From assembly GCA_964035575.1 (NCBI GenBank), contig OZ037903.1, forward strand, positions 1,017,001-1,081,000: a stretch of DNA of 64,000 nt, in the 5' to 3' direction. The notes under the pieces are model-generated. The model did no database searches. It was not told where the DNA came from and worked only from the letters and a program-made list of their open reading frames with translations. Source of the DNA: Rhynchopus sp. YZ270_cl-10 (Eukaryota; Euglenozoa; Diplonemea; Diplonemida; Diplonemidae). The position numbers and the translations under genes were made by a program. Of this stretch, positions 1 to 43,469 are shown in pieces. Within the stretch, counting starts at the first letter, position 1, and every line of letters starts with the position of its first letter.

Positions 1-40
1 TGTGCACGAGAGGCACATTCATCTTACAATTTTTTCTTTT
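1..40 (+). repeat. Family A hairpin element (TGTGC/GCACA stem)
   Basis: The arms TGTGC and GCACA enclose the loop acgagag, followed by TTCATCTTACA and a T tract. Other copies use the stem CTAAGC/GCTTAG with the same loop, so the stem sequence has changed while pairing is kept. The left edge may be cut by the window. Confidence 0.6.
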
Positions 41-59
41 TCTTTTTATTCTTCTTCTC

Positions 60-100
60 TTTGGTACACTATCGAGAGGGCTTTGTATTTCAATTTTTTT
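60..100 (+). repeat. Family B element, partial
   Basis: This holds GGTACACT, then ATCGAGAGGG and CTTTGTATTTCAA, matching the 3' half of the fuller copies at 1184, 1563 and 10262. The hairpin half is mostly missing. Confidence 0.5.
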
Positions 101-515
101 TTGTAACAATTTTTTTGCGTCAGTGAAAGCCAGGAAGAAGGTGTGCAATGTACGTTCAACAACAATTTTTTTAATAAAAAAAAGACTTTATTTTTGGTAA
201 AGTGTTTTCCACACACACATACAATGCACATTATTCTGAGGGTGTTCAAAGACGGGAAGGGTTGGGTTTACTGTATTTTGTAAAACATGAAACTTGGTGT
301 ATACGGGGGGAGGGGTTTCACCACTTTTTCGCAACGATGTTGGGTGTGAAAAAGTTGTGAAAACCCCGCTCCCCGAAAAGCACCAAAACTTTGCATATGT
401 GGTCGCTACATATTCCAAACAGGATTTTTTTATAATGAAAAATGGAAACACACCGTTTAAAGGATGAAAAAACATAAAGAGCCTTTGGGCTCTTCCTTTG
501 TAACCTTTTTATTTT

Positions 516-568
516 CCTCGATTGAGAGATGCGTTTTAGCACGTTTCAACTACTCTTTTTAGTCGAGG
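516..568 (+). repeat. Family D element
   Basis: The core GATGCGTTTTAGCACGTTTC recurs at 10692-10735 and 18797-18830. In this copy it is enclosed by CCTCGA (516-521) and TCGAGG (563-568), which are complementary. The copy at 18797 lies inside an intron of a gene. Confidence 0.6.
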
Positions 569-630
569 CAAGTTTGCACTTCAAACTTTCCCTTCTTTTT
601 TTTTTTTATGTTCTTGCTTGCAACCTCCTT

Positions 631-770
631 CGTGGTAAACCGTGTGCATACCAATGAAGTGCACTCTGGGGGTTCGATAACCCCGCGGAGAAACCAATGC
701 GTCCGACGATGCACGGTGAGGTGTTTGCACTTTTCAACGTCTCTTTTTTTTTTTTCAGCTCTTTTTTTTT
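631..770 (+). repeat. Family C composite element
   Basis: The element begins with GTGGTAAACCGTGTGCATAC. Next comes a hairpin with arms GGGGTT and AACCCC around cgat, flanked by CTC and GAG. It ends with GAGGTGTTTGCAC, a CAACGTC motif, a T tract and CAG. Related copies are at 3958, 22256 and 32154, and 3' parts recur near 10218 and 30645. GGTTCGATAACC resembles a pol III B box, but no good A box is visible, so pol III origin is only a guess. Confidence 0.6.
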
Positions 771-1065
771 TTTGCTTTTTGAGGAAGCGGTTTCTGTGCG
801 GGGAAGGGTGGGTTTTATTTTCTCCCCTCTTCAGTGTCTTGTTTGTAACACCTTGATCTCATTTCCCACCCCCCCATATTTATCTCGCCCTTTTTTGATT
901 CATACCCTTTTGTTTTGTGAAACATAAATTACGCAGCTTGCAGTTTAAAAAAATAGATAAAAGAGAGAGAGAGAGAAAAAAGCATTTTCCCCTGAAAACC
1001 ATAATATTTTGGTGTGATCGACGGAACTGTACCAAAATCAGCCACAAGGAATGCAGAGCTTTAAA

Positions 1066-1135
1066 AAAAGACAGTGGTGATTGCCACACTGTGGCAACAC
1101 AACCGAGACAACTACACTACTCCAACAATTTATTT
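1066..1135 (+). repeat. Family E hairpin element
   Basis: A perfect 7-bp stem TTGCCAC/GTGGCAA with loop act is followed by CTACACTACTCCAACAATTT. Related copies are at 5988 and 10008 on the + strand, and a partial copy at 37568 on the minus strand. Confidence 0.55.
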
Positions 1136-1179
1136 CAAAGCAAGACAATAATGTATTGTTTTGTGGACCAGACGTCAAC

Positions 1180-1365
1180 CTCAAAATGGATGTAGGACCG
1201 CATGGTTGAGTGCCACCCCCCCCCCCGGTACACCGATCATGTACCAAAGGTACACTGTTACACGAGAGGGCTTTGTATTTCATGTCAAAATTTTGCTACT
1301 GTTTTATTCCTCCCCCCCCGGAGATGTAAAGACTTTGTGAAGACTTTGTATTTTCATAAAAAAAT
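1180..1365 (+). repeat. Family B element, full copy
   Basis: Order of parts: AAAATGGATGTAGGACCGCA, a C-rich tract, the hairpin GTACC-aaa-GGTAC, ACACGAGAGGG and CTTTGTATTTCA. A degenerate second block (GAGATGTAAAGACTTTG) follows and recurs after the copy at 1563. Confidence 0.65.
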
Positions 1366-1484
1366 GCCTTCGATCACATCAATATTTCAAAACCCAGCTC
1401 TGGGTTAAATGCCTTTCCCGCCCCCCTCTTCCTTTTTATTATATTTTTTGTTCTTCTGTCTGCAGCGACAACGAAAAAAAAACC

Positions 1485-1526
1485 CTTCTTCTTCTTCTTC
1501 TTCTCTCTCTCTCTCTCTCTCTCTCC
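1485..1526. repeat. CTT/CT microsatellite
   Basis: A run of CTT triplets passes into a CT dinucleotide run. It is the source of spurious Ser/Leu and Arg/Glu open frames on the two strands. Confidence 0.9.
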
Positions 1527-1562
1527 CTGTACCCTTTCCATGCCATGATCGGGGCACTTTTT

Positions 1563-1735
1563 TTGGTTGGGTGTCCACCCCCCGGTACAGTACCAAAGGT
1601 ACACTGTTCATGAGAGTGCTTTGTATTTCAAGTCAAAATTTTGCTATTTTATTCCTCCCCCCGAAGATGTAAAAAGACTTTGAGGAGACTTTGTATTTCA
1701 AGTCATTTTTTTTTTTAAGCATGAGAGGCTTGTGT
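1563..1735 (+). repeat. Family B element followed by a family A-like hairpin
   Basis: The order is GGGTGTCCACCC, the hairpin GTACC-aaa-GGTAC, CATGAGAGTG and CTTTGTATTTCAAGTC. At 1717-1731 the arms AAGC and GCTT enclose atgagag, the same YGAGAG loop as family A with a different stem. Confidence 0.6.
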
Positions 1736-1852
1736 TCTTCTATACCAACTTTTCGAGCTTGGGAGAATATGTGTCCGAGATTTCAGGTTTCGATAACCCA
1801 TGAAATGTCAATAAAGATTTGGACGAGTTAGCGGGGATGTTTTTTTTTAGAT

Positions 1853-1885
1853 GAGCGTGCACGAGAGGCACATTTATCATTTTTT
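1853..1885 (+). repeat. Family A hairpin element (GTGC/GCAC stem)
   Basis: CGTGC and GCACA flank the loop acgagag, followed by TTTATCA and a T tract. The stem resembles the copy at position 1 and differs from the CTAAGC type. Confidence 0.6.
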
Positions 1886-2164
1886 TTTCTCTTTTTTGCG
1901 TGATAATTCACTCTACCGTCGAAGTCTTATTAGCACCCGCATTTTCCCCCAATTTTAAGATACATGATTAATCACGTGTATCTTCGCGGTTTTTGTTTTT
2001 GTTTTTCTTTTTTTCCCCTTTGATGTGTGCACAGCATACGTGTGCACATTGGATTTCTTCAAACCCCTTCTTATTTTGTGTGTATTTTGTGTGCTTTCAC
2101 CCGGGGCTGCCATTGGGGAGGATGACAGTCGGTGTGACTGCAGTCACAACTACCATTTTATTTT

Positions 2165-2255
2165 AAGGTGACTCGAGAGGCGTAGGGTCATCTCATAAAC
2201 TTTTCTTTATTTTATTTTCGACAATAACATGCACGCCCGAGCGGCGTTTTCATCT
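2165..2255 (+). repeat. Two adjacent degenerate family A elements
   Basis: The first (2165-2205) has AAGGTGAC, CGAGAGGC and TCATCTCATAAAC. The second (2233-2247) has arms ACGCC and GGCGT around cgagc, followed by TTTTCATC. The second stem is a further pairing-preserving variant. Confidence 0.45.
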
Positions 2256-2442
2256 TTCATGTATTCTTCTTTATCCCCCCCCTTTCCCCCTTTCCCCATT
2301 TTATTTGATGTCCGTGCGATCCAACCAAAACCAAACGCAGGTTTCAGCTTCACCATTTTTTGTTTACCTTTTTTTTCTTCACCTTTTTAACCCTGTATGC
2401 TTTCTTTTTTTGAAAGGAAAGTATGCGAAAATGACTGATGGG

Positions 2443-3159: not shown

Positions 3160-3190
3160 AATCATACTAAGCGCGAGAGGCTTAGGCTAG
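3160..3190 (+). repeat. Family A hairpin element
   Basis: CTAAGC (3167-3172) and GCTTAG (3180-3185) enclose gcgagag. The outer arms and the T tract seen in the best copies are missing. Confidence 0.5.
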
Positions 3191-3600: not shown

Positions 3601-3702
3601 AAAGCGACATAGATTGGTGTGACTGGAAACATGCCCTAAAACAGTACTCCAAGAAAGTACAAAAAAAAGTACTGTAGTTCCACCTTATTTTTCGGCCCAG
3701 TC

Positions 3703-3760: not shown

Positions 3761-3957
3761 CATCGATGGTGTCATTGTGTCAGAATTCTTGAAATATTTG
3801 AAATATGTGCAAAAAAGCCTTTCAAACATTTGTACATAAAAAAAAACGCTTTTGTGGAGGGGGGGGGAAAAATAAAGGTTGAAAATGATGGTGTATTGTA
3901 CAGCGAAGGGATATACATCTTCACACTGTTTCTTTTGCTGTGGACAACCCTCCTCCC

Positions 3958-4040
3958 CTCGTGGTAAACCGTGTGCATACCAATGAAGTGCTCTCTGGGG
4001 GGGTTCGATAACCCCGCGGAGAAACCAATGCCCTGTGTCG
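3958..4040 (+). repeat. Family C element
   Basis: CTCGTGGTAAACCGTGTGCA, ACCAATGAAGTGC, then a hairpin with arms GGGGTT and AACCCC and a GCGGAG right flank. It closely matches 631-700 but lacks the GTTTGCAC tail. Confidence 0.6.
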
Positions 4041-6045: not shown

Positions 6046-7284
6046 AATATTGAAAAATCTGGATTCCTGGATAAGACACTGTTGATGTACGAAAAGAATT
6101 CTCCTCGAAATTGATTTAATCAAACACAAATACCACTTTAACCCCCCCCAGACGGGGCTTTTGTCTTTTTTTATTATTTTTTTAGAAGTCGATTTCAACG
6201 ACACTCTTTAATTTGTCTGTTCTCTTTCTCCCGCATTTTTTTTGTACCTTTTTCCCCCCCAAAAAAAAAACATCGCTTTTGGCGTAGAGTATTTATCACC
6301 GTTCTCATGTTTTGGATTTAAAAAAAAAATTATTCATGAAAGTGAGTGTATTGCCACCCTCCCTGACCTCCTTTATCACAGCCAGGCCCCCGTGCAGGAA
6401 GGTGCCGTAAAAGAGAGATTGTTGCTTCACCTTCTGTTTCTCCTGAGGGTTGTTGTGCTGTGTAAAAAAAAAAATCAACTTTTTTTACATCCCTTTGTAG
6501 AGAGAACCCCAAAATACCATCCCCCTTCCCATTATTGTACGCTTCAGATAACTCCCTTTTTTTCCTTGAGTGACTTTGTAATTTGTTTCTGTGTTTTTTG
6601 GTCGCACAAAGGGAATATTCAATAAAAAACTAATTTAAACAAGATGACCAAGGGAATTAATTATGGCGGTTTTAATTATGTCGTTTTTTTGCGTGTCGTT
6701 TTTCAAAAAAAATCACCAAAAAACTGACTTTTTGCCATCTTTGTCATCTTATAAACTTTTTCTTATTTTTGCTCATAGCTAACTAACATTGAGAAAAAAG
6801 GTGTTTCCTCACAGCCAGGGCACCCCCTTGTCCCTCATTTCAAGTTTTCATTGTTGTACGATGTGCTGTGGTCGCAAGGCCCGCTCATGTTTAAAGTATT
6901 TTTTTCTTTCAATTGTTTGCTTCTTTTTTTTTGCTTGGTGCACCTTCCCCTGAACCCTTTTCCTTTCCTCCCCTTTTTTTTTGTACTTTTGTATCTGTGA
7001 ATTTATAGCAGGGTTTTTTTGGTCACCAAGTCACAAAAATGGGTTTGCTTTCAAAACAATCCCCACACACACACACACACCTCCCTTCCTTGTAGATACC
7101 ATTGTTTTCATATTTTTTTGCCACCCTTTCCAAGCAAAGAAGAGAACACTGTTTTGATCTTTGGCTTTATTGTCCATTAAAAAAAGCGGGGGTGTATTTT
7201 TTTCTCTCCCTCATTCGGTGTGGCTGAAAGGGGAGGGTGCGATGAAGTGCTATTTTGGGGTTGTCAGCAACACCAACATTGTTT

Positions 7285-7579: not shown

Positions 7580-9977
7580 ATGGAGGTTGTGAAGAACCAG
7601 AAGATTGGTGAAGGTGCCTGCGCGAAGGTGTACAGAGGCACGACGTCAACAGGCGGGCTTGTTGCAGTGAAATGTGTGCAGACGGACACAGAGCACGCAG
7701 CAGAGGCTGCTAAGGAGTACGCCCTTCTCCGAAAGCTTGTACACCCGAACATAGTGCGGGTTATAGGCTATCATTACACTAGAGGTATGGTTTTTTCTTT
7801 GTGTGATAAGCGTTTCCCCCCCGTCGTTTATAATTAATGCGATCAAGAAGGCTTAGGTTCATCTTATCAGCTTTTTTGGTGGATGTTGTGTATTCTTCCT
7901 CTTTTTTTGTATTTATGGTGCGACTGAAACCAGCTGTTTTGCCTCCACCAGAAGTCCATAAAAATGTCCATTTGCAGGCTCGGGTAACACCAATTTTGGA
8001 GGGGTTTTGAGTGCTTTGTTGTATTTAGTTTATTTCCTCTCCCCTTTTTTTGTCTTCACAGAGAGCCACACTGCAGACATCATCATGGAGTATGCAGCTG
8101 GGGGCACGCTTGCAGCGCTTCTGCTCCGCGCACCGAAACTGGAGTTTTCTACAGTGGCAATGTGGGCCCGGCAGATGACCGACGTATGTTTTTCCTCTAA
8201 CTCATCTCCAGCTTCTCCTCCCCTCCTCCCTTCACCCTTCTGCCACCTACACAATGCTACACAGGGGCTCGCATACCTACACTCAAAGAACATCGTCCAC
8301 CGCGACATCAAACCCTCCAACCTGCTCCTCGTCGAGACCTCGCAGGTCCCCGCCCCCACCTCCCACCGCCACCACCCCACCACCTCCGCCGCCTCTCCAT
8401 CCCCTTCTGCACCGACGATGTCCATTAAAATCGCAGACTTCGGCTTTTCACAACTCCTTGCAGGGAACAAAGCTGGCCGTGCTGGGGTCGTCGGAACCCT
8501 CCCATACATGCCGGCCCCCGCTTTGAAAGGGGAGGTGCGGTTTACGAATGATATTTATGCGGTTGCGTGCACGTTGTTGGAGGTGGTGACACGGCATCGT
8601 CCTTGGGAGGGGATGGATTCGGGGGCAGTGAGGGAGAGGGTGCTGGCTGGGCAGACCCCGTTTGAACAGCTTGGATCGGGAGGGTCGCTGCAGAAGGGAA
8701 TTGCTGGGAAGCGTGCAGAATATAGTACAGAGGAGACCTCTGCTTTGCATGCGTTTATCGAGGAGTCGCTTTCAGCCGGAACTCTTGGGGAAGTCCAGCT
8801 TGCAACCCGACATACTATAGTCCCTGCGAATGAAGCGCTGAAAACGTTGTGCCAACGTCACGCAAATCTGCTTCAAAACTTTGGTGCAAACCCTGCTCCG
8901 ATGAGCGGAAGTAATAAAGGGTCGTCCACCCGCGATGCTGGACCAGTTGGAGTGAATCCTACTAGGGCAAATGGTAGTACTTCATCCGTACCATCGCCGG
9001 CGCCGGTTCGGTTTGAAAAAAGCGAAAAAAGCGATAATGACTCCCGAGGAAATGTTTTCATAACCGACGGACGCGGCTGGGTAGCCCCAGAGGAGCGAAC
9101 AGAGGATATGGAAAGAGTTTCGCTTGATGGCTATGAAGTGGAGGACGACTGCGCATCGTCCTCTTCTTCGTCGGAGGAGGAAGACTTCTTTAAGACCCCC
9201 ACCAAGCTTCCGGCGGCGCCGCTGTTAAAAGCGAAGCGCGTTCTTTGCAAGGCGTTTACGAATAATTCGCTTTCATATAATGAAGTGGAGCGGCTCTACG
9301 CTATTTTGTTGACAGAGGTGAAAGAGAGCAGCCCGAAGCATGTTAAGCTGTGCAGCGTGCTGTTGGAGAGACTGTGCGATGTGGTCGAGATTTTGAAGTA
9401 TCTGGCGAGTCGGGATGGGTTGAGTGGTGGTGGGAGTACTGATATGCCGCACTGTGCGTCGTCTACTACGCAGTCACATTGCTCCTCCTCCACGCTCTCT
9501 AATGTGAAGCTTGCATTAGAGGACTATACAGGGATTTTACGTCATTTTGCCTCCGATTTCAATATGCTCAGCGAGCTTGCACAGTTAAACAATGCACGTA
9601 CCTTTAGTCTAGGCTACGGACCTGCCGAAACAGAAAGGTTGCTTCGTGCGGAAGGGAGGGGTTCGTATATCATCCGCCCTTCGTCGAGGCAGATGGGGAC
9701 ATTAGTGTTAAGCAGCTTTATCCAGAATAACCAAAGAAAGGGGAAGCTCGTAGGGCATTTTATCCTTGTGCGCGAAGAGGATGGGTTGCTTGCTTTAAGG
9801 GGGATGGAGCAGGCCTTTCCAAGTCAGCCGCAGATTCGTGCTACTACACTGAAGACATTGCTTTCGTCGCTTAAAGCAAATATCCCGCATGACTTCCGAC
9901 AAGGAAGGGGGTCTAAAGTGGAGATCATGTCGCATGCAAGCTCTGGGTCGCAAATATACTTTGGGCATGCCAGCTGA
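7580..9977 (+). CDS. Protein kinase with C-terminal SH2 domain (SHK-like architecture)
   Basis: Three exons, 7580-7784, 8062-8183 and 8265-9977, give 679 residues. Introns are gtatgg...cacag (277 bp) and gtatgt...acacag (81 bp); both restore the kinase frame exactly. Kinase domain, residues about 5-260: glycine loop GEGACAKV, Lys31 in VAVK, HRDIKPSN at 121-128, DFG at 167-169. The HRDIKPSN form is typical of Ser/Thr or dual-specificity kinases. Oddities: a Pro/Ser/His-rich insertion of about 25 residues between HRD and DFG, and MPAPAL where MAPE is usual. Next come a disordered, acidic, Ser-rich linker and an SH2 domain at about 555-655, with YIIRPSS in place of FLVRES and the phosphotyrosine-binding Arg at 580. 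Kinase-then-SH2 order is known from the SHK kinases of Dictyostelium. A role in phosphotyrosine-linked signalling is inferred. Confidence 0.85.
7785..8061 (+). other. Intron 1 of the SH2 kinase, containing a family A element
   Basis: The donor is GTATGG and the acceptor TTCACAG. Within it, 7849-7877 reads AGGCTTAGGTTCATCTTATC plus a T tract, the 3' half of family A. This places a dispersed repeat inside a confidently placed intron. Confidence 0.7.
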
Positions 9978-10217: not shown

Positions 10218-10372
10218 GTTCCTGCGTCCCAGAGGTGTCACTTTTATTGATGTAAACCACAAAATGGATGTAGGACTGCATGGTTGGGTGTCCACCCTCC
10301 CGGTACAGCCAGTCATTGTACCAAAGGTACACTGTTCATGAGCGAGAGGGCTTTTGTATTTCAAGTCAACTT
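10218..10372 (+). repeat. Composite of family C tail and family B
   Basis: TTCCTGCGTCCCAGAGGTGT (C tail) is followed by AAAATGGATGTAGGACTGCA, GGGTGTCCACCC, the hairpin GTACC-aaa-GGTAC, GCGAGAGGG and TTTGTATTTCAAGTC. This is the most complete B copy. Confidence 0.65.
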
Positions 10373-10689
10373 TATTTTGGATTGTTTTTTGTCCCTATCG
10401 AGCCTCTAGCCTTTATTGTTCACCTTTTTCTTTTCCGTGCAACGTTGAAGCAATAAACCACAAAACCCCCCCGCAAAACAGATTCCAAGAGACGGAGGCG
10501 GCATTATTTTTTGGTTTGTATTGTTCAAAGAAGATGCGTGCTTTTTTTCATCTTAGTTTTCTTCGTTTTGTCTTGATGTGAGTATGCTCATTTTACATTT
10601 TTTTTCTCCCTTCCTGGAGACGAACGAGAGCGGGGGTGGTTTTACTTTTTATTGTTTTATCCACTCAAGGTCCCCCACCCCTTTGCATG

Positions 10690-10795
10690 AGACTCGACTG
10701 AGATGCATTTTTAGCACGTTTCAACTACTATTTTCATAAGTTTCTAAGATGACTAAGCACCGAGAGGCTTAGGGTTCACCTTATCACCTTTTCTT
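10690..10795 (+). repeat. Composite of family D and family A
   Basis: CTCGACTGAGATGC...TTTAGCACGTTTCAACTA is followed 25 bases later by AAGATGA, CTAAGC, the loop accgagag, GCTTAG and TCACCTTAT. The same D-then-A order makes up most of intron 2 of the gene at 18488. Confidence 0.65.
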
Positions 10796-10870
10796 TTATT
10801 GTCCAGAATGATATGATCTGTTACGGTTCGGGTTACTCTGTTTTGTGTTCTACAATTTTTATTTTTTTTG

Positions 10871-10924
10871 CCTAAGAACGTCAGGCTTAGGTTCTCACCT
10901 TACCAACTTTTCTCTCTTTTTCTA
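10871..10924 (+). repeat. Family A element ending in an acceptor-like site
   Basis: CCTAAG (10871-10876) and CTTAGG (10886-10891) pair. TTCTCACCTTACCAACTTTT and a pyrimidine run ending in CTAG follow, which looks like an intron 3' end. Confidence 0.5.
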
Positions 10925-11419
10925 GAGACAGGTTTGCACATTCAACTTCACTTTACGGCTACTGTCTCAGTTGTCTTTGGGTCATATCTTGCGAATGATG
11001 GTTTTAAGGTTCAAAAACCGAGTCTTCTTTCCGCCCTTAAAGAGATGTGTCAAACGCAGGCTACTGCAAAGCCGTGGACACACAACAAAAAGGTTGTGGA
11101 TTCAAGGCGGATACTGCCCTTGAAATCCTACTTTTCAAGTAGGGTCGATTTCATTCCTTCGCAAAGGTGTTCTGTGCGCAGAGAGGTGGCGTATTTTTTC
11201 AAGTCTTTTTTTGCTCCATATTTCTGAGAGTGCCTGAGCAGCTTTGGGCGAAGAGTGAAGAGGACAACAAAAAAAAAACTTTAACAAAAAACGTAATTTT
11301 TTTGTCTCCTTCGCATTCATGGCCGCCTTTCACAGATTTTACCCAGTTAGGGTCTCGTCCCCGCCTTCAGTCCTTTGCAGGTTACTCAGCAAGCGTGGAA
11401 CTGTATTCAATATGGATCA

Positions 11420-13533: not shown

Positions 13534-13685
13534 CCATGTTGCTTTTCACTTTGTGTTGGCCCACTTCTAGTGGGGCGCATGTGATTTGCCAGAGCACTTC
13601 GCTTTGGACTCCTTCTCACATTGTCCACGATTCTCAACTCACCACTCCACAGAATACTGTTCTATTCGTTACACCACCTTTCACT
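12880..13685. other. Spacer between tandem beta-helix genes
   Basis: The 806 bases between successive coding regions are repeated with the unit. I see no separate gene. Small open frames here have low-complexity, Cys/His/Phe-biased products. The spacer must supply both 3'-end and 5' signals for each gene, since units 2 and 3 have no other upstream sequence. Confidence 0.5.
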
Positions 13686-18487: not shown

Positions 18488-19079
18488 ATGCCGAACCTGT
18501 GTCTGTCGTGCACATTCAACCCCCCCGTTTTGAAAATAATGGGCCACACCCTGCGCGAGGAGACAGTGCACAAGCTTCAGAGCAGACTGCCAGGTATACC
18601 TTTACCCCCCCCATACCGTATTTTTATGTGAGGAGAAAACCAAAACGGAAGTACTCAAAAAAAAAAAACAACCCCCCCTCAAACAGCTGTGACGACGTCG
18701 ACAGCAAGCCCCAGTAGTACCCCACCGAAGTTCGTGTTCGTCCAGGTATGCATACTATTTTTCTCTTGAGGTGTTGACACACTATTTTTTTTTATTCTCG
18801 ACTGAGATGCGTTTTAGCACGTTTCAACCAATGGTGACTGACTACACACTGAGGGTTAGGTTCCGTCTTGCAAACAATTTCTCTCTCTCTTCACAGAACC
18901 CACCACACTGGCACCTTGACCTGGGACAGCACTACTGCGACCACCTCGGCCGTTCGTTCATCTTCCTGACCTGCATCGAATGCCTCGAAGGGGAGGACTG
19001 GAAGCTCAGAGGGACCAACTGCATGACTCACTACGACCAGCCTAAGGACACAACAAAGTTCTTTTTCCACCGCGATTAG
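18488..19079 (+). CDS. Small hypothetical protein, three exons
   Basis: Exons 18488-18593, 18687-18745 and 18897-19079 give 115 residues. Both introns start GTAT (gtatac, gtatgc) and end in acag, and splicing keeps a single frame. The N-terminal part has CLSC, a linker is Ser/Thr/Pro-rich, and the C-terminal exon is compact and hydrophobic-aromatic (NPPHWHLDLGQHYCDHLGRS, then CIECLEGEDW). Conserved-looking His, Cys and Trp residues suggest a folded, possibly metal-binding protein, but I do not recognise the family. Exon 3 has clearly coding composition (GC-rich third positions). Confidence 0.6.
18746..18896 (+). other. Intron 2 made largely of dispersed repeats (D then A)
   Basis: This intron contains the family D core GATGCGTTTTAGCACGTTTC (18797-18830). 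A degraded family A 3' half follows (GGGTTAGGTTCCGTCTTGCA, then AAAC-like bases and a pyrimidine run into CACAG). The same D+A order is found outside known genes at 10690-10795. An intron built of repeat modules is what introner-like elements would leave. Confidence 0.6.
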
Positions 19080-19787
19080 AACAATAGAGCAAAAAACGCT
19101 TTGGTCGGGTAACACTTTTCATATTTTAACACACTCTTCCCCCACAATTCTCTCCATCCCCCATACACATTATCTCAAAAAAAAAAAAGTCTTGAGGAAC
19201 CAACTGAAATGGAACAAAAAAAAAATATGCAATTTTTTGCACAAATACTTTTACACTACCCAGTTCTTTTCCCATCCCGTTTTTTCTGTCGTAATTTTCA
19301 AAAAAAAAAAGGTTGCTGGATGGTTGGGTTCCCTTTCTTTTCGCTCGTTGGTATCGTCATTAGGATCTTTGATCATCTGATCTCAGGGGAGCAATCCCTT
19401 ATTGATTAGAGTGACAAAGAAACCTGATGGGGTATGCGTTCTGTCTCCCCGCAAAAGGGAGATAGGGTTGAGTGGAATCAAGGAAGAATACATTTTTTTT
19501 TTTAAAGCAGCGGAAATTTTGCGAAACTATGGATGTCTTTTTGCAACACATCCAATTTCGACATTTTTCTTTTTTTTTTTTGAAAAGAACAGAAAAAATA
19601 AACACCCCCATTTTCCCTTTTTTCTTTGGTGAGGTGATTTCACCTATCAACTCTTTTTCTTTGAAGTCCACCCTAGCTACTACCAATGGGTGGCAAACGA
19701 ATGTAAAACCAGTTTTCTTTTTTCTTCCTTTTTTTGAAAGGGAGATAGAATGACTATACACTCGTTTTATCAGCTTTCCTTTTTTTT

Positions 19788-19832
19788 AAGATGACTAAGC
19801 ACGAGAGGCTTAGGTTCATCTTATAAATCTTT
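19788..19832 (+). repeat. Family A element, best-preserved copy
   Basis: AAGATGA, CTAAGC, loop acgagag, GCTTAG, bulge gt, TCATCTT. Both the inner 6-bp and outer 7-bp arms pair perfectly. ATAAATC and a T-rich run follow. Confidence 0.75.
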
Positions 19833-20631
19833 CTTTTTGTGTTTTCGTTGGTCCTTTATCTCCTCCCCCACACAATTCCCCCAAAGTATATAATACAATT
19901 CAATAAGAACAGTCGTTTTCCCTCCCCTTACCATATTTTTGCACTAGCTTCAAGGACATCAGGGGACAAGGAGTTTCCTAAAGGGGGTGAATATCAACTT
20001 GAGGATCGAAGATTGACCGCTCAATGTTGTTGAGCATTCATCTGTTGCAATAGGCAATGTGGTCCCTAGTTTTGTGGCATCGTGTATTCGACAGCATGTT
20101 CACAACCAAATGTCTCGCTATTTGAGCGACATCTCGTCTTCTCTTCTTTCGGCAGGTGGAGGAGTGGAGGCAGTTCGCCGAGGTTGTGGTTGCTGCTCAA
20201 TACTTTCAGGATACCTTTGCTTTTATCCTAACTTCAGTTCCACATACGAAAAAAATTTTTCCCGGTTTGCGCTCTGCTTCCAGCCCGCTGTGCTTCTCCC
20301 ACCCTGTTATTTTGTAGTGGGTTATATACTCCCATATACCCATTATACACTCCTAGGATTTCCCTGTTCCAGGTGGTCCGACGACAACGTGGTACTCCCA
20401 GGCGTGTTTTGTTGACGTCCCTCAGAGACAGTTTATTCTGTCCTTCAACCTTCTCCTTCTGCGTCCTTCCAAGGCGTCTTCCTCCGCCGCAGAAAAATAG
20501 TCTACTCAGGAGGCATAGCGTGATCGCCTTCTCGAAGTGGAGGGTACCGTTTTTTTTTCTGTCGTAGTTGATCTCATGAGCCAGGCGCTCGTCACGCAGG
20601 TGCGTACAAAAACTCAACGTCCGATCTTTAT

Positions 20632-20706
20632 ATGGGTTGGGTGTCCACCCCCCGGTACCAAGGTACACTGTCACGAGATGGCTGTTGTATTTCAAGTCAA
20701 CTTACA
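20632..20706 (+). repeat. Family B element before the gene at 20797
   Basis: GGGTGTCCACCC, the hairpin GTACC-aa-GGTAC, CACGAGATGG and TTGTATTTCAAGTC. It ends about 90 bases before the start codon, so it may lie in the 5' leader. Confidence 0.6.
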
Positions 20707-22255: not shown

Positions 22256-22380
22256 CAATCTCCCTCATGGTAAACCGTATGCATGCCAATGAAGTGCTCT
22301 CTCTCTGGGGGTTAAAATCTCGGGGTTAAAATAACCCCGCGGAACCAACACCCCGCCGATGAACGGTGAGGTTTTTTATT
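22256..22380 (+). repeat. Family C element with a duplicated hairpin arm
   Basis: TCATGGTAAACCGTATGCAT, CCAATGAAGTGC, then GGGGTTAAAAT twice before AACCCCGCGGA. The right end reads GATGAACGGTGAGG, as in the copy at 631. Confidence 0.6.
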
Positions 22381-30797: not shown

Positions 30798-30842
30798 ATG
30801 ACTACACACGAGAGTCACATTTCATTATTTTCAACTTTTCTT
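30798..30842 (+). repeat. Family A hairpin element (TGACT/AGTCA stem)
   Basis: TGACT (30799-30803) and AGTCA (30813-30817) enclose acacacgag, followed by a TTTCATTA-like tail. This is another stem variant with pairing kept. Confidence 0.45.
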
Positions 30843-36555: not shown

Positions 36556-36784
36556 AAAGAAGATTTGTTTGTGAACAGTAATTTTTTTTTCAAAAAAAGT
36601 GTACAGAACCTTGTCGATTAAAAAAAAAAGTGACTAAAAGCGGATGGCAAAGAAAAAAAATGCGGTCCAAAGTTACCCAACATTTTGTTTTGTAAAAAGA
36701 TTTTTTTGAACGAAATAGTATTTCCCGGCTGCGTTGAAGTGACCAAAACCCCTCTCTCTCTCCCCCCATTCGTGCCATTTTTAA

Positions 36785-36833
36785 AAGGTGACTAAGCACA
36801 GAGAGGCTTAGGTTCATCTTATAAACTTTTTTT
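36785..36833 (+). repeat. Family A element
   Basis: AAGGTGA, CTAAGC, loop acagagag, GCTTAG, gt, TCATCTT, then ATAAAC and ten T. The outer arm uses a G-T pair (AAGGTGA with TCATCTT) where the copy at 19788 has A-T. Confidence 0.7.
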
Positions 36834-37039
36834 TTTCTTTTGGCATTTTTTTTTATGTACAGAATCTCATATTTTGTCAATCCGACAAAACTAACAATAC
36901 AATAGGGTAATAGAGAGAGAGAGAGAGAGAGGGCCTCTCTGCCTCACGGTCCACTCTACGTTCCCTTGCTTGGTGTGTTCTTCTCTCCGTCCAGGACACA
37001 GTCCCAATTCTTTATGTTAGTTTTTTCAAATGTAAACCT

Positions 37040-37192
37040 CGAAAATGGATTGTAGTTAGGGTCCACACCCCGGTCATACCAAGGTATACACTGTCATCAG
37101 AGGGATTTGCATTTCAAGTTAAATTGGCGGTGTAGATGGGTAGGTACAGCAGATATGTGTCACGAGAGGCTTTGTATTTCAAGTCAAAAATG
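37040..37192 (+). repeat. Family B element with stem change, plus a second partial copy
   Basis: The hairpin reads ATACC-aa-GGTAT instead of GTACC/GGTAC, a paired change. CATTTCAAGTT follows. A partial second copy at 37158-37190 reads CACGAGAGGCTTTGTATTTC. Confidence 0.6.
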
Positions 37193-37567
37193 TCTCCTAA
37201 TCCTGATCTAATTGAGACTGCGATTTTGAGACCACCTTTTGGCAAGTGGAAAGCAGTGTTATCATAACGCCGCTTCTCTATGCTTACAATGTGCTCAAGA
37301 CGTTGTTTGTTGGGAACATCTGCAAGCCAAAAGCTGCCTTTAAAGAAAGGACATATTTTTTTTTTTTGTCAATATTCGTTCAGGAATTTGACAGGGAAAA
37401 AAAGGGGGCTTCGTTCTTTGTGTTCTTTGACACAATTAAAAGGTCACTCACTGCTCTTCTAGGGTGTGCGTTTTTCTTTGATAGGACAATAAGCGGGAAA
37501 AAATATTGGGGGGAAGTGTGTTGTGAATGTGTATTTGTCGTGATATTTTTTCTTTTTTTTTGAAAAC

Positions 37568-37592
37568 TTGGTTGGATTAGTGTAGACACCCG
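37568..37592 (-). repeat. Family E element, inverted partial copy
   Basis: The reverse complement reads CTACACTAATCCAACCAAGT, close to the element at 10008. It is one of few elements outside the sense orientation. Confidence 0.45.
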
Positions 37593-37977
37593 AGGATGAA
37601 CTCCACTATATTTTTTTTCTTTTCATGTTTGTCTCTTTTCTGTTGCAATGGTGTGGTGAGAATATGCGGATGAGAAAAGAGAATTGAGCTTCCTTATTCT
37701 ATTCCAGAAGCTCAATAACCCACAGAGCGCTGATATCTGCATTGCTGAGGCATTTTCCCCCGACAATATAACCTTTCAACCTTTTTCTCTCTATCTTTAA
37801 GGCGCTAAACACGAGAGACATAGGCTTTATCTTACAAATTTTTTTTTGTGTTTTTTTTTGTTGTAAGAACAGTCAGGGACAGGGATTTCAACAGTTTGAT
37901 TTTTAAAATACTCCTCGATTTTGGTAAAAAAAAGAAGCATATTTAACCCCCAGACCCCAAGACTAACAGCGTCCCGT

Positions 37978-38025
37978 AAGGTGACTAAGCAACGAGAGGC
38001 TTAGGTTCATCTTATAAACTTTTTC
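37978..38025 (+). repeat. Family A element
   Basis: AAGGTGA, CTAAGC, loop aacgagag, GCTTAG, gt, TCATCTT, ATAAAC and a T run. Nearly the same as 36785-36833. Confidence 0.7.
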
Positions 38026-38543
38026 TTATTCCTTCCTCCCACACCAACAAGCCTCACCCCCATCCACCTCGATTCCCCCCCTGCCTCATGACTCAGCTTA
38101 TAGAGGCAAGAAAGCAACGTTTTAGAATGTACCCCCCCAAAAAAAATTGGTGTAAAAAAAAAAGCAAAAACAAAAAGCAAAAAAAAAAGGCAAAAGCGAT
38201 GAGAGAAGGTTATGGGAAAAATAAAAAAGGGGGCGGGTAAAACAAAAAAAGACAAAAAAAAAAAAAAAAAAACGAAAAAAAGGGGGGCAAATTGGTACAA
38301 AAAATGGGATTTGAAAGATAAACAAACAAATAATGGACGTATTTTTTCCTTCGGTTCATTTCCCCTTCCTGGATGTATTTCATTGCACGTTGGTTTGCAT
38401 TGTATGTGGAAGATGTGTCTTTCCAGCTGTGGTGCGTAGTTTACATGCTTCGGATGGCATTGGCCAGAATATCACATTGCAAAGGTCATGGCCATTTTTG
38501 ACAAACACCAACAACATCACACAACAGAGCCACAAAAAGAACA

Positions 38544-39530
38544 ATGCGTACCCTCTCCCTCGTTGTGTGTGCCCTCCTGGCGAGCCAGGCCCACGGGTAC
38601 TCCGAGCAGTACGTGCGTGCCAACTCGCAGCTGCTGTGGAACACCTTCAAGGCTGACCACGGCAAGCAGTACTCGAGCATCGCGGAGGAGCAGCGCCGCT
38701 ACGGGATCTTCACCGCCAACATGCTGAAGGCGTCGCGTTTCGAGAAGGAGCAGACCAAGGGAGCGCAGTTCGGCATGAACGTGTTCTCTGACATGTCTGC
38801 TGCTGAGTTCAAGTCGTACCACAACATGAAGGTGGAGAAGAAGCAGTCGCCCCCTGCCATGTTCACTGAGGAGCAGGTGGCCGTCGCCGCCGACTCCAAG
38901 GACTGGAGGTCCGCTGGTGCCGTGACCCACGTGAAGAACCAGGCGCAGTGCGGATCGTGCTGGGCGTTCTCCACCACCGGAGGAATTGAGGGACAGTGGC
39001 AGCTGTCCGGCAAGACCCTGACCTCGGTGTCCGAGCAGGAGCTTGTGTCGTGCGACAAGGTCGACCAGGGCTGCAACGGAGGACTGATGGACAACGCCCT
39101 GAAGTGGCTGATCTCGAACCACAACGGAGACATCGTGACTGAGGACTCGTACCCCTACAAGTCGGGCACCGGAATCCGCCACGACTGCGAGTCCGTGACC
39201 GGCAAGCCCGTCGGAGCCACCATCTCGTCGTACAAGGACATCACCCACACCGAGGCACAGATGAAGACCTTCGTCTCCACCGGAGGACCCCTCTCCATCG
39301 CCGTTGACGCCCAGAAGTGGCAGTCGTACTCCGGAGGAGTGCTGACCACCTGCTGTGGAATCTTCGGATGCCAGCTTGACCACGGAGTGCTCATTGTCGG
39401 ATACGGCGCTGACTACTGGATCATCAAGAACTCCTGGGGACCGACCTGGGGAGAGTCTGGATACATCCGTGTGTCCTACGGCTCCAACGAGTGCGGCCTG
39501 AACGAGTCCCCTGTGACCTCGATCGTCTGA
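38544..39530 (+). CDS. Cathepsin-L-like cysteine protease (papain family C1)
   Basis: A 328-residue preproprotein with no intron. It has a signal peptide (MRTLSLVVCALLASQAHG) and an I29-type propeptide with ERFNIN-like spacing (EEQRRYGIFTAN) and GMNVFSD. The mature enzyme starts near residue 115. Catalytic residues: Gln in KNQAQCGSCWAF, Cys139, His280 (LDHGVL) and Asn296 (IKNSWG). The GCNGG motif typical of the family is present. Codon use is strongly biased (GGA, GTG, AAG, CTG), like the histone genes beside it, which suggests high expression. It probably acts in lysosome-like compartments or is secreted. A long hairpin follows the stop. Confidence 0.95.
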   Translation: MRTLSLVVCALLASQAHGYSEQYVRANSQLLWNTFKADHGKQYSSIAEEQRRYGIFTANMLKASRFEKEQTKGAQFGMNVFSDMSAAEFKSYHNMKVEKKQSPPAMFTEEQVAVAADSKDWRSAGAVTHVKNQAQCGSCWAFSTTGGIEGQWQLSGKTLTSVSEQELVSCDKVDQGCNGGLMDNALKWLISNHNGDIVTEDSYPYKSGTGIRHDCESVTGKPVGATISSYKDITHTEAQMKTFVSTGGPLSIAVDAQKWQSYSGGVLTTCCGIFGCQLDHGVLIVGYGADYWIIKNSWGPTWGESGYIRVSYGSNECGLNESPVTSIV

Positions 39531-40538: not shown

Positions 40539-40775
40539 ACGTGAGCTGGCATGAGCATGAGCTGTTTCACTTGTTTTGAGTTTTTTTATGTTTTTTCACG
40601 CTTTTGCCTCTTGTGAGCTTGCTTGCCAAGCCGGGAGGGGTGGATTACCACCAGTGACAAATTGTTCCAAGAAGACAGACACCACCTACTTTGTGTTCCT
40701 ATTCCCTTCCTTCACTCTCCTCTGTATCACTCACACGCCTCACAGCTTCTACCACACACCACCAACACACTCACA

Positions 40776-41063
40776 ATGCCGAGGTTCGAGTCGATCACGA
40801 TTGCCAAGCCGGACGCGAAGCGCTCTGCGAAGATCAAGGAGGCAGCGAAGGCGAGGAAGGACGCTGTGAGAATTGCAGTGAAGAAGGTGAAGGAGGCTGA
40901 GAAGCAGAAGCGTGCGGACGCCAGGGCCAAGAAGGCGGCGAAGAAGGAGGAGAAGGCGAAGAAGGCAAAGAAGGCGAAGAAGACCACCACGAAGAAGAAG
41001 GGAACGTCGACAAAGAAGAAGGGGACTTCCACGAAGAAGAAGGCCAAGACCACGAAGAAGTAA
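40776..41063 (+). CDS. Histone H1-like basic protein
   Basis: A 95-residue protein, very rich in Lys and Ala. The N-terminal 20 residues (MPRFESITIAKPDAKRSAKI) are followed by KAAKK/KAKK runs and a TSTKKKG repeat. There is no winged-helix domain, so it resembles the tail-only H1 proteins of kinetoplastids and some other protists. Its place between H3 and H4 supports a linker-histone role. The start follows the leader CACACTCACA. Confidence 0.75.
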   Translation: MPRFESITIAKPDAKRSAKIKEAAKARKDAVRIAVKKVKEAEKQKRADARAKKAAKKEEKAKKAKKAKKTTTKKKGTSTKKKGTSTKKKAKTTKK

Positions 41064-41333
41064 GCCTGCGGCCAGAACGTAGCAACTTTGCAGCAGTGTG
41101 AGTGCACTGTGTGTTGTAAGTTTAGTATTTTTCCTTTTGTAACAGTAACCTCTGGGCTTGCATGCAGGCCACACGGAGGGGTGGAGATTCCCACCACATA
41201 CCAGAAGAACAAAAATCTTCATGAAAACAAAAGCCAGTGTGACCTTTTCTTGCTTTGCGTTCACCCATCCCTCTCAGCATCGTCCTCGTCCTCAGCTCTC
41301 CCCTCCAGATATTCAAGACAAACAACACACAAA

Positions 41334-41675
41334 ATGGGTCCGTCGAAGTCTGCGAAGGGAAAGTCGGTTGCCTCCGGAAAGGCTGACAAGAAGACGACTG
41401 GAAGCCAGAAGCGCAAGGGCGCAAAGTCGAACAAGGGCCGTGGTATCACGAAGGGAAGCATCCGCCGTCTGGCCCGCCGTGGAGGGTGCAAGCGTCTTGC
41501 GAGCAGCGTGTACGACGAGGCAAGGGAGATCCTGAGGAACTTCGTTGAGCAGGTGATGAAGGACACCCACGCGCTGATGGAGGTGCGTGAGAACGCCCCT
41601 GCGAAGACGGTGCGTGTGGAGCACATCCTGTACGCCCTGAAGAAGCGTGGCCGCACCCTGTACGTCTCCAAGTAA
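41334..41675 (+). CDS. Divergent histone H4
   Basis: A 113-residue, intronless protein. The fold aligns from about residue 36: KGRGITKGSIRRLARRGGCK, then YDEAREILRNFVEQV and YALKKRGRTLYVSK, against the usual QGITKPAIRRLARRGGVK and YALKRQGRTLYGFGG. The N-terminal tail is about 10 residues longer than usual and does not match [18 protein letters not shown]; acetylation sites equal to K5, K8, K12, K16 and the K20 site cannot be assigned. The start follows ACACACAAA, as in the other histone genes. Confidence 0.9.
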   Translation: MGPSKSAKGKSVASGKADKKTTGSQKRKGAKSNKGRGITKGSIRRLARRGGCKRLASSVYDEAREILRNFVEQVMKDTHALMEVRENAPAKTVRVEHILYALKKRGRTLYVSK

Positions 41676-41969
41676 GCAGACACGTTGTCATGCTGTGAGA
41701 CGCACACCGCCTTTTGTGGTGTACTCTTTTTACTTTTTATCTTTCTTTTGTTCCGAAGCTGTGCTGTTGCCGAGACTAGTCACTAGCTTTCATGCGACAG
41801 CACAGTGGCGTATTTGACGCCCCTATTGTAACACAACCCTACGGCAACACTCCCCTTTTTTTTCCACCCACATCCTTACCTCCACCCACACTACCCACCC
41901 AGCACCCCTCCCTTCCCCTCTAATCTCTCCCCTGCACATCACTCCACCCAGGCATCAGTCTCCTCAACC
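41676..41969. other. Spacer after H4
   Basis: Shortly after the stop ACACC and GGTGT flank a short loop (about 41704-41722), a possible hairpin, not the animal histone stem-loop sequence. The right half is C-rich (CACCCAC) and is probably the leader of the next gene. Confidence 0.4.
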
Positions 41970-43064
41970 ATGGCGCGACGCAAAATCATTGTCGACACCG
42001 ATATGGGCCCTGATGATGCTCTCGCTATATTAGCTATCCTGCGAGACCCTGACGTAGATTTGGTTGCTGTCACCTGCGTCTGGGGTGCCACCGTACTTGA
42101 GAAGGGTGTTGCGAAGTGCTGCAGCCTTCTGCACTGCCTGGACGTGCACAACGTTCCGGTCTACCGGGGTGCCTCTGAAGCATTGATAGAATCGGATCGT
42201 GTAGGCGAAACATATGCAGACCCTGTCTTGCCGGCGTCACCTTTGCAGCCAGCAGCCGGCCACGCAGCGGAGGCGCTTGCCCGCATGCTCCCTTCTAAAC
42301 AGCGTGGTGAAGTATGGCAGCTTCTTGCATTCGGCCCGCTCACTAACATTGCATTGGCGATTCGGCTTTGCCCACAGCTTCTCACCTTTCTTGGAGGCCA
42401 CGGTGTAGATGGGTTTGTTGCTATGGGCGGCGCTTTGGCGAATAAAGGCAATTCCGGGCTGGCATCAGAATTCAACTGGCACTGCGACCCTGAAGCCGCA
42501 ATGGTGGTGACCCAAAGCGTAGGAAGGGTCACACCATTTCGAACACCAAAGCTAGTCTTAGTTCCATGGGAAATGGCGGCAGAGGCGCCACTCTCTTGGC
42601 ACGAATTTGATCAATTACTAGGAAGGGTAGAGGGGAGACCCTTAGGGGTCAGCTGCGCGACGCTCTCGGAGGCACAATGGAACACACGAGATACGTTGCG
42701 AGGGTTGTTGGACACATTGTTCGCTGGGTTTGAAGGGGCGACGAGGGGGAAGTCTTCGAGCTGTTGTGTGATGCCTGTATTGGTGGCGGTCCTGGTAGCC
42801 TTGCATCCATCCTTTGTGACAAGCACGAAGGATACGTATGTGGAATGTGAGCTGACCTCGCACACTGCACGAGGCTGCAGTGTCATAGACTGGTACGGGA
42901 CAGCGCAGAGTATGAAGAAGGAACGGCGCTGGATCAACACCTCGGTGGTCACGTCCACACGACGCGCTGACCTTGTCAATTTTGTCTTCAGTGTCGTAGA
43001 TGGAGTAGCCTTTGACAACCAAGGCAGGGGTCGCGGGAAGAGTGTTGCCGAGCTAGCCTGTTGA
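41970..43064 (+). CDS. Inosine-uridine-type nucleoside hydrolase
   Basis: A 364-residue, intronless protein. It opens with the family signature VDTDMGPDDALA (residues 8-19), whose Asp residues bind calcium and activate water. LAFGPLTNIALAI and AMGGALANKGN follow, then SEFNWHCDPEAA, the usual NxxxDPEA block. Reaction: hydrolysis of the N-glycosidic bond of nucleosides to base and ribose, used in purine or pyrimidine salvage. No signal peptide, so probably cytosolic. The start at 41970 follows a CTCAACC leader, and it puts the signature at the expected distance from the N-terminus. The C-terminal part is less conserved but similar in length to other members. Confidence 0.9.
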   Translation: MARRKIIVDTDMGPDDALAILAILRDPDVDLVAVTCVWGATVLEKGVAKCCSLLHCLDVHNVPVYRGASEALIESDRVGETYADPVLPASPLQPAAGHAAEALARMLPSKQRGEVWQLLAFGPLTNIALAIRLCPQLLTFLGGHGVDGFVAMGGALANKGNSGLASEFNWHCDPEAAMVVTQSVGRVTPFRTPKLVLVPWEMAAEAPLSWHEFDQLLGRVEGRPLGVSCATLSEAQWNTRDTLRGLLDTLFAGFEGATRGKSSSCCVMPVLVAVLVALHPSFVTSTKDTYVECELTSHTARGCSVIDWYGTAQSMKKERRWINTSVVTSTRRADLVNFVFSVVDGVAFDNQGRGRGKSVAELAC

Positions 43065-43469
43065 CGGCATTTTTGCGCAATTCGATGAAACGAAGCCAAA
43101 AAAAAAAAAGTAAAAAAGAGAATTAGAAATATGCACGGACTTTGTTTACACAGAGATTGCAGTGTTTAATTTTACCCTTTTTTTCCTAACTTTTCTCGAG
43201 CTCGCATCTACGTAGAATAACAGAGTCCTTTTTTGTTATCCTCATTTATAAACCACGAAATGGATGGTTCCGCCCCCCGGTTTCCCCGGGCATTTGCACC
43301 AAGGTACACTGTTCACGAGAGGGCTGTTGTATTTAGCCAAACTTTTTCCCCTCCCATCTCCACCACCACCACCACCACCACCTGCTACAGCAACAACCCC
43401 CCCAGACCCTGAAGAGACCACACCGGAGCAAGGCTGAGGGGAGAGGGGGTATTCTTCTCTCTCTTCGTC
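43065..43469. other. Spacer before the giant gene
   Basis: It holds a B element (43253-43345) and a CCA-rich microsatellite (43358-43383). The last ~40 bases before the start are C/T-rich (TTCTTCTCTCTCTTCGTC). Confidence 0.55.
43253..43346 (+). repeat. Family B element upstream of the giant gene
   Basis: ACGAAATGGATGG, a C-rich tract, GCACC-aa-GGTAC (one mismatch in the stem), CACGAGAGGG and TTGTATTTAGCC. It ends about 120 bases before the start codon. Confidence 0.55.

Follow-up and report, generated by a model that had tools for sequence, protein, structure and literature searches.

Probable LINE 3'-terminal hairpins lie in gene direction across a diplonemid-like genome

Short hairpin repeats, here families A and B, follow the direction of the genes across a 152-Mb, diplonemid-like genome, with few exceptions among the matches listed, and known jumping-gene behaviour leaves this choice of strand unexplained. 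It is very probable, taking both statements jointly, that this diplonemid-like genome has long one-directional gene blocks and that family A is the 3' UTR, with the 3'-terminal hairpin, of a LINE with an APE endonuclease. The repeats were noticed in a window of 64,000 nucleotides (the whole stretch of DNA analysed), whose genes lie on the plus strand and whose positions 43412-63983 form a single plus-strand open frame. In this window, an Rfam scan gave no match at the gathering score, a tRNA scan found none, and comparison with a phage collection gave no match.

An earlier note on the window had described hairpins carrying YGAGAG in the loop, and most of the stems it listed are present: CTAAGC/GCTTAG at about 10753, 19795, 36792 and 37985, TGTGC/GCACA at 1, GTGC/GCAC at 1857 and, for family B, GTACC/GGTAC together with its ATACC/GGTAT variant near 37071. 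The hairpin described as AAGC/GCTT at 1717 exists but reads TAAGC/GCTTG at 1716, and that of TGACT/AGTCA at 30799 exists with the motif overlapping its 3' arm instead of in the loop, while the hairpin given as ACGCC/GGCGT at 2233 has the loop CGAGC and lacks the motif. The loops of the A1 subfamily vary, being ACCGAGAG at 10753, ACAGAGAG at 36792 and AACGAGAG at 37985. As had been claimed, every A or B copy found in the window lies on the plus strand, like the genes; a lone weak minus reading overlies a plus copy. The hexamer YGAGAG alone is not enriched in the window (53 observed against 59.5 expected). Outside coding segments, 314 kb hold 32 hairpins with a YGAGAG loop, against 3-10 in ten shuffles, and these are therefore more than chance. 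The features of the window are the following:

1..41, plus strand: subfamily A2 copy of GTGTGC/GCACAT type, clipped by the window start
63..93, plus strand: family B fragment
1169..1293, plus strand: family B copy
1564..1641, plus strand: family B copy
1716..1732, plus strand: hairpin TAAGC-ATGAGAG-GCTTG, no recognisable A tail
1846..1894, plus strand: subfamily A2 copy, hairpin GTGC-ACGAGAG-GCAC (A model, E 0.45)
2163..2210, plus strand: family A1 copy, 5' inner arm carrying a deletion
3167..3185, plus strand: hairpin CTAAGC-GCGAGAG-GCTTAG whose tail differs; judged by eye, related to the subfamily led by GATGAATAAACCAAAGAATAATCTAATCAG (L025, L008)
6719..6766, plus strand: degenerate A-like 3' end (E 0.07)
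7834..7878, plus strand: degenerate A copy (E 0.017)
10249..10374, plus strand: family B copy
10744..10798, plus strand: family A1 copy, loop ACCGAGAG
10868..10920, plus strand: degenerate A copy (E 3.9e-5)
18829..18885, plus strand: degenerate A copy, weak (E 0.19)
19786..19838, plus strand: family A1 copy, loop ACGAGAG
20629..20703, plus strand: family B copy
30799..30817, plus strand: TGACT/AGTCA hairpin, motif over the 3' arm, then a CAACTTTTCTTTTC end; no match to the A model
36783..36836, plus strand: family A1 copy, loop ACAGAGAG
37028..37124, plus strand: family B copy, ATACC/GGTAT variant
37128..37190, plus strand: family B fragment
37796..37849, plus strand: family A1 copy, diverged
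37976..38029, plus strand: family A1 copy, loop AACGAGAG
43247..43345, plus strand: family B copy

The source of the family A hairpin is seen in LINE-1462, named for the 1462 codons of its open frame, which matches PF03372 (APE-type endonuclease, E 1.3e-13) and PF00078 (reverse transcriptase, E 9.2e-25); LINE-1 ORF2 and R2 are among the solved relatives. At locus L039, the stop of the frame is followed by CGAATATGAT and then by the A hairpin. The LINE 3' end has the same composition in 12 of the 13 loci read, namely a stop codon, CGAATATGAT, a hairpin of 13 bp whose loop is ACGAGAG, and a T-rich terminus, so that 11 of the 12 loci beyond L039 match its layout, with unrelated flanks beyond. At the thirteenth locus, L054, the stretch read stops inside the frame; the pattern listing for its LINE places leader and hairpin at C22:430371, 2348 bases past the start of the reverse transcriptase match, and the leader and hairpin at C9:1093204 lie likewise 2348 bases past it. 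Copies of LINE-1462 have this 3' end in common and are truncated on the 5' side. LINEs were assigned to families by hand, using score and frame length (150 rows of 739 candidates), and shorter frames were placed with the family of similar score. The suggestion of an RNA-borne mobile element is thus supported, since the hairpin terminates a multi-copy LINE at its 3' end and this LINE has an open reverse transcriptase frame.

Copies without an adjoining LINE leader outnumber those with one, and the scattered pieces are mostly of about 50 nt. The LINE leader is absent from 33 of 36 sampled A copies (chance match rate 0.6%); another leader, of AATCAGA type, occurs in 4 of these 33, which leaves about 29 starting at the foot of the hairpin. 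Genome-wide, the last 8 letters of the leader are found on 243 of 1108 exact hairpins. The repeat scans omitted L001, a duplicate of the window, and from the A list of 62 rows, 5 of the 40 in its first part were dropped (the window and four on C1-C3). By eye, the consensus 3' ends of families B, C and D resemble that of A. No convincing target-site duplications were found (mean 1.43 against 1.09 in shuffles, with 82 of 500 shuffles as high), and the T-rich junctions could mask short repeats.

The proposal that the loop is conserved while the stem is free holds between subfamilies, where loop and pairing are retained and the stem letters differ: pairing is kept in 23 double-changed cells against 6.1 in shuffles (0 of 500 shuffles), a slid control giving 24 in one case. 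It fails within the family, since in an alignment of 34 similar copies the stems decay uncompensated, covariation within the subfamily is absent, and RNAalifold missed the hairpin and returned four other pairs. The structure is therefore taken to belong to the source element, the LINE RNA having a 3'-terminal stem-loop in its predicted fold. Stretches with A1 copies fold better than shuffles (z -2.7 to -3.1), and in them the outer arm AAGRTGA/TCAYCTT described earlier does pair. The single clipped A2 copy gave z -1.3, and a stretch with a B copy folded no better than shuffles (z -0.7).

Strand was counted for copies no more than 150 kb from a marker gene, among the matches listed (at most the first 100 places per pattern; the A copies number 1927), the 135 kinesin matches being merged by hand into 120 genes. 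Under these limits, the sense to antisense ratio was 31:0 for LINE-anchored A copies, 38:1 for A2 copies and 37:1 for B copies, whereas a control repeat of 2083 copies was unbiased (47:44 relative to A/B orientation, among the matches listed). In these genome-wide lists copies follow gene direction, the outcome that the earlier note's strand test predicted. The only exact A copy against gene direction (G000:C1:1325641) was kept in the counts. LINE-1462 loci were 13:0 sense, while those of LINE-1364 were mostly antisense (1:8 in 9 judged loci). Family F, which carries an A tail and forms the 3' end of a further LINE, was 23:3 sense with strands partly set by hand, and therefore strand is not predicted by the tail base.

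Among the sampled loci, L020, L029 and L033 were set to the minus strand by hand; L029 and L033 adjoin minus-strand loci, whereas the setting of L020 was drawn from its own elements alone and is circular. L015 was omitted from the sampled-locus strand counts and set to plus in the distance, target-site-duplication, flank and family F tests. Hand-set strands enter the sampled-locus strand counts, the T- and A-run counts, the distance and target-site-duplication tests, and the flank and family F counts; the genome-wide strand tests are independent of them. Two candidate antisense exceptions were rejected on reading translations: the opposite-strand segment of L015 is a LINE reverse transcriptase fragment followed by an F tail, and those of L029 are a transposase-like frame and a simple repeat.

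The bias could lie in the target sequence only, a U-tailed element entering T-runs (polypyrimidine tracts) of the sense strand. The 5' flanks are indeed T-rich (15 to 23 of 29 at positions -8 to -4), as are the 3' flanks of LINE copies, and pure pyrimidine 15-mers outnumber pure purine ones (316 against 149). However, sense-strand runs of at least 8 comprise 388 of T and 351 of A, the T share of runs is 54.6% at lengths of at least 6 and 50.7% at 10 or more, far below what 31:0 needs, and the A-tailed family F is mostly sense too. Because T-runs are nearly symmetric between strands, tail annealing alone is insufficient; T-run targeting as sole cause was rejected, and we regard this explanation as highly improbable. 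It also seems very unlikely that the hairpins are functional RNA signals (for trans-splicing, polyadenylation or mRNA stability) selected in gene spacers and hence sense, even though their orientation and the stable A1 fold would suit such a role and Leishmania retroposons of the SIDER type in 3' UTRs are reported to affect mRNA levels (PMC2689281, PMC11520807). The sequence is that of a LINE 3' UTR, similar copies decay uncompensated, and no preference of A copies for positions near coding segments was seen: for 27 copies, median distances to coding segments, which are not full gene models, were 1066 upstream and 699 downstream, against 1079 and 922 for random non-coding positions. On these medians, the distances argue against a gene-processing signal and the corresponding half of the earlier suggestion, an RNA-level signal, is not supported. 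Individual copies may nevertheless have been domesticated as RNA signals.

Strand-random insertion could also be followed by selection purging antisense copies, for example if their pairing with sense copies in polycistronic transcripts triggers RNA interference. Contig arms appear to be read one way (34 gene pairs of type -+ and 1 of type +-), so antisense copies would yield antisense RNA, and RNA interference machinery is among the supplementary topics of the Diplonema genome paper (PMC10161547). Nevertheless, LINE-1364 is mostly antisense, the control repeat is unbiased and LINE-anchored copies already stand at 31:0 among the matches listed; we consider purging rather unlikely, although selection may act differently on different elements.

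Because LINE families in one genome differ in strand preference, strand would most likely be chosen at insertion, coupled to transcription or to a replication fork running the same way. Either may set the strand. A bolder reading, which we hold to be slightly less likely than not, is that the insertion machinery of LINE-1462 and of its hairpin-bearing passengers senses transcription or fork direction, so that copies enter only one DNA strand of arm-long one-directional blocks, another LINE preferring the opposite strand, and that a promoterless hairpin of about 50 nt is alone a self-sufficient passenger, since read-through transcription of the block would supply its RNA. In our main explanation, the LINE protein would bind the hairpin on its own RNA or on the RNA of a passenger bearing that hairpin, with specificity for the loop and with recognition of the stem by its shape. 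It would then nick the template (antisense) strand of the DNA at an A-run, opposite a sense-strand T-run; the U-rich RNA end would prime there and copying would follow. Copies of about 50 nt would arise if synthesis halts at the hairpin foot or if the source RNA starts there, and families B, C and D may be passengers on the LINE-1462 machinery.

Stringent-type LINEs such as UnaL2, ZfL2-1 and ZfL2-2 encode an APE endonuclease and a reverse transcriptase, as does LINE-1462, and with their partner SINEs they share with it a 3'-terminal stem-loop, and short elements bearing the tail of the LINE; their constant loop and exchangeable stem would be matched here by the pattern between repeat subfamilies. 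According to PMC4176376, ZfL2-1 and ZfL2-2 tolerate a swap of the stem and not of the loop. LINE-1462 differs in its T-rich end, its hairpin-only short form, its near-complete orientation with genes and its host lineage. Orientation fixed relative to a transcribed unit recalls SLACS/CRE and R2, which are site-specific LINEs of SL RNA or rRNA genes; here, in contrast, insertions are dispersed in non-coding DNA, and no one gene was seen to serve as target. Leishmania SIDER elements (ingi/L1Tc clade) are likewise short, degenerate, LINE-related and in sense excess within polycistronic gene blocks, but family A consists of only about 50 nt from a 3' end. A 79-nt signature (Pr77 hallmark) marks SIDER and the ingi clade. 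SIDER in 3' UTRs are exclusively sense according to the abstract of PMC2689281, while in its table and text sense copies prevail by about 4 to 1 overall, with an antisense excess in spacers; for L. infantum SIDER2 in 3' UTRs, PMC11520807 gives 82% sense.

No earlier description of such a case was found in the open-access literature on repeats of diplonemids, on retrotransposons with a strand bias and on short elements made of a tail only. The element is of a known kind, and what is new is its unexplained strand choice. LINE insertion usually shows a weaker statistical bias relative to transcription or replication, blurred by selection. The bias here is nearly all-or-none among the matches listed, against about 4 to 1 overall in Leishmania SIDER (PMC2689281). 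Since the same genome offers internal controls, one repeat without bias and one LINE family of other orientation, the cause of strand choice is directly testable. Copies consisting of the hairpin alone would rank as very small mobile units derived from RNA, and the pattern of loop and stem suggests that the 3'-tail recognition known from fish and eel LINEs may reach diplonemids.

Family A, the ~50-nt repeat with a loop of the ACGAGAG type, consists of hairpins that, as the earlier note had described, are present in the window, although some of the details needed correction. The consensus of its main subfamily (A1, stem CTAAGC/GCTTAG) is AAGGTGACTAAGCACGAGAGGCTTAGGWTCATCTTATAAACTTTTCTTTT, with a predicted fold of a 13-bp hairpin in which two bases bulge out of the 3' arm. 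Three A1 stretches folded with z-scores of -2.98, -2.72 and -3.09; one copy of the A2 subfamily (GTGTGC/GCACAT) reached -3.12, another A2 copy that was cut short -1.29, and a stretch holding a copy of the repeat family B -0.72. A covariance-model search of 26 sources (314 kb) returned 72 matches to A at E up to 1, with 39 at E 0.001 or less; 32 of the latter, including two in duplicated DNA of locus L023, lie in 250 kb outside the window, and extrapolating from them gives roughly 20,000 copies in the genome. Matches on both strands of one source were confined to the window and locus L033, where the reverse match is in each case one weak reading overlying a copy already found. Exact patterns for the A core, A2 and B occur 1927, 188 and 419 times in the whole genome, and the corresponding backward control patterns 0 times each.

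The origin of family A was found at the 3' end of a LINE. Of 739 candidates from a reverse-transcriptase search, 150 were scored, and the 3' parts of nine LINE loci from different families were examined; reading located the frame end in L035, L036, L037, L039 and L040 and missed it in L034, L038 and L042, the frame of L041 being still open. One of the nine, L039, continues after its stop codon with CGAATATGAT and then a complete A hairpin. The same 3' end, with unrelated sequence beyond, was recovered in 11 of 12 further loci of this LINE. In the twelfth, L054, the stretch stopped within the frame; the leader (the LINE sequence directly before the hairpin) and the hairpin are listed at C22:430371, 2348 bases past the start of the reverse-transcriptase match, a distance identical to that of the locus on contig C9. 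The LINE protein carries Exo_endo_phos endonuclease and reverse transcriptase domains, and its solved relatives include LINE-1 ORF2 and R2. At L056-L058 (G000:C45:1155300-1158900) the LINE also has an upstream frame, and the main frame starts near a ...HPGPKK stretch, a putative 2A-like motif. Another LINE (L036, 1320-codon frame) has a 3' UTR that opens with GGGATGAGAGGGGAGG, YGAGAG once more.

The end of the LINE frame is still attached to the A copies of L015 and L033. The LINE leader is missing from 33 of 36 A copies (0.6% of random places match it), and since four of these 33 have a different leader (AATCAGA type), about 29 start at the hairpin foot. Genome-wide, the last eight LINE letters precede 243 of 1108 exact hairpins. 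That so many 5' ends coincide with the hairpin foot points either to a fixed stop or to an RNA starting there.

The proposal that the stems differ between copies and still pair was borne out across subfamilies but not within the main one. Among 34 A1-like copies, stem covariation was absent (0.053 versus 0.062 when shuffled; 474 of 500 shuffles as high). A model-aligned set that includes the subfamilies (70 distinct rows), which is biased toward structure and counts related rows several times, showed double changes in 9 of 13 pairs, 23 double-changed cells versus 6.1 in shuffles and a covariation score of 0.154 versus 0.115 (0 of 500 as high for both); slid-pairing controls scored at most 0.053, yet reached up to 24 double-changed cells. 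A stem-blind search using only GAGAG and TCATCTT (one mismatch), in loci that include eight picked for similarity to A, gave 52 distinct rows with 34 distinct 3' arms, whose mean stem was 3.15 versus 2.44 with arms re-dealt (1/2000), and 2.77 versus 2.29 (36/2000) when the main class was set aside, leaving 30 arms. Pairing thus seems to belong to the source elements (CTAAGC/GCTTAG, GTGTGC/GCACAT, CCAAGC/GTTTGG) rather than to resident copies.

In the window (G000:C71:1017001-1081000, in a genome of 152.4 Mb and 126 contigs), all coding segments are on the + strand, bar one weak 222-base segment; neither an Rfam family at gathering score nor, in a tRNA scan, a tRNA was found. For the cysteine protease at 38544-39530, the closest named relatives are in Diplonema papillatum (best 60% identity) and the top matches are ENA and EukProt sequences, pointing to a diplonemid-like euglenozoan as the source. 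At 11398-17107, a gene with a right-handed beta-helix domain (PF13229) is present in three tandem copies, spaced by 2114 bases and 97% alike in their first 300 bases, and a frame at 8007-9977 combines a kinase domain with a weak SH2 match (E 1.1e-4). A single + open frame of ~20.5 kb (43412-63983), with proline/threonine-rich and cysteine-rich repeats as judged by eye, runs to the window end; the coordinates of the earlier note end just short of it.

Genome-wide, A places form long same-strand runs (100 listed of 1927), and among the matches listed neighbouring copies agree in strand 87:8 for A and 64:14 for B, compared with 51:46 for a control repeat (pattern AAGTAGCGTACCGTGCGCCTGCGGCGC, 2083 exact copies) that has no orientation bias, including relative to A or B within 100 kb (47:44). 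Genes were marked by a kinase motif (92 places) and a kinesin domain. For kinase motifs and the closest A or B copy, strands matched 23:0 at distances up to 100 kb and 30:2 up to 200 kb. Within 150 kb of gene markers, sense:antisense counts were 22:0 and 19:0 for A (two lists) and, among the matches listed, 37:1 for B, 38:1 for A2 and 31:0 for LINE-anchored copies, in line with the sense bias that had been predicted. The A2 and B exceptions are both on contig C16, to the right of a minus gene and adjoining plus copies, and thus probably sit at a strand switch. Neighbouring gene markers paired as -- 58, ++ 40, -+ 34 and +- 1, and most two-strand contigs look as if they read outward from one switch. 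Using gene markers only, assuming a single outward switch per contig and excluding contig C2, the matches listed gave 42:0 for LINE-anchored copies (58 unassigned), 49:0 for A2 (51) and 40:0 for B (60), while A (two lists, 162 places) gave 45:1 with 116 unassigned, the exception being C1:1325641. C2 shows a -+-+ pattern and may be two chromosomes joined.

De novo clustering, for which strands were assigned manually in L020, L029 and L033 and L015 was excluded, recovered short families confined to one strand with respect to genes: 24:0 and 12:0 for A, 31:0 for B, 9:0 for C, 5:0 for D and 5:0 for a tRNA-like head; longer repeat families were mixed or merely skewed (6:4, 4:6, 2:5; also 10:2, 10:3, 7:3, 7:1). 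For A2, B, C, D, E and the tRNA-like head, no locus contained copies in both orientations. Judged by eye, B, C and D end at the 3' side much as A does, with a GAG-type loop edge and a AACTTYTCTTTT-like end. Family F forms the 3' end of another LINE (L040); it has an A tail and is mostly sense (23:3).

Copies of family F and of the tRNA-like SINE head in the window
37554-37609, - strand: family F copy, antisense, one of three antisense among 26 sampled
622-743, + strand: tRNA-like SINE head with GGTTCGATAACCCC (B-box-like); runs on into family C
3956-4031, + strand: tRNA-like SINE head with GGTTCGATAACCCC
22257-22375, + strand: tRNA-like SINE head with GGTTCGATAACCCC

Regarding the cause of the bias, LINE families (named after open frame length in codons) differ. 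For LINE-1462, the LINE that ends in the A hairpin, 13 of 27 loci could be judged against a marker (gene, A or B copy) no more than 150 kb away, and all were sense (13:0; 12:0 when only genes served as markers), whereas LINE-1364 (20 loci) is mostly antisense, 1:8 and 2:8, respectively (Fisher 2.8e-5 and 1.4e-4); the remaining families are small or mixed in strand. We favour a strand choice made at insertion, because a general host purge of antisense copies would not yield opposite preferences; the LINE-1364 numbers are small, and selection that differs from element to element is a possible alternative. The 5' flanks of copies are T-rich, but targeting of T-runs was rejected as the sole explanation, as these are about as frequent as A-runs on the sense strand (388:351 for runs of at least 8 bases, 936:777 for at least 6, 147:143 for at least 10). 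Pure pyrimidine versus pure purine stretches on this strand are skewed (316:149). Target-site duplications gave no signal at copies, and the median distance of copies to coding segments was like that of random places. A replication origin at the switch, if there is one, would favour the strands that transcription favours, and the two are not separable here.

According to PMC4176376, the zebrafish LINEs ZfL2-1 and ZfL2-2 require a 3'-tail stem-loop whose stem, but not its loop, can be exchanged, the same pattern (stem free, loop fixed) as between the A subfamilies. By analogy, family A may work like a stringent-type LINE tail, the decisive feature of which would be a putative binding by the LINE protein. 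Leishmania SIDER elements are, according to PMC2689281, about four to one sense overall and antisense-rich in spacers, those in 3' UTRs being termed exclusively sense in its abstract. What is new here is the near-complete strand choice, together with the hairpin-only form.
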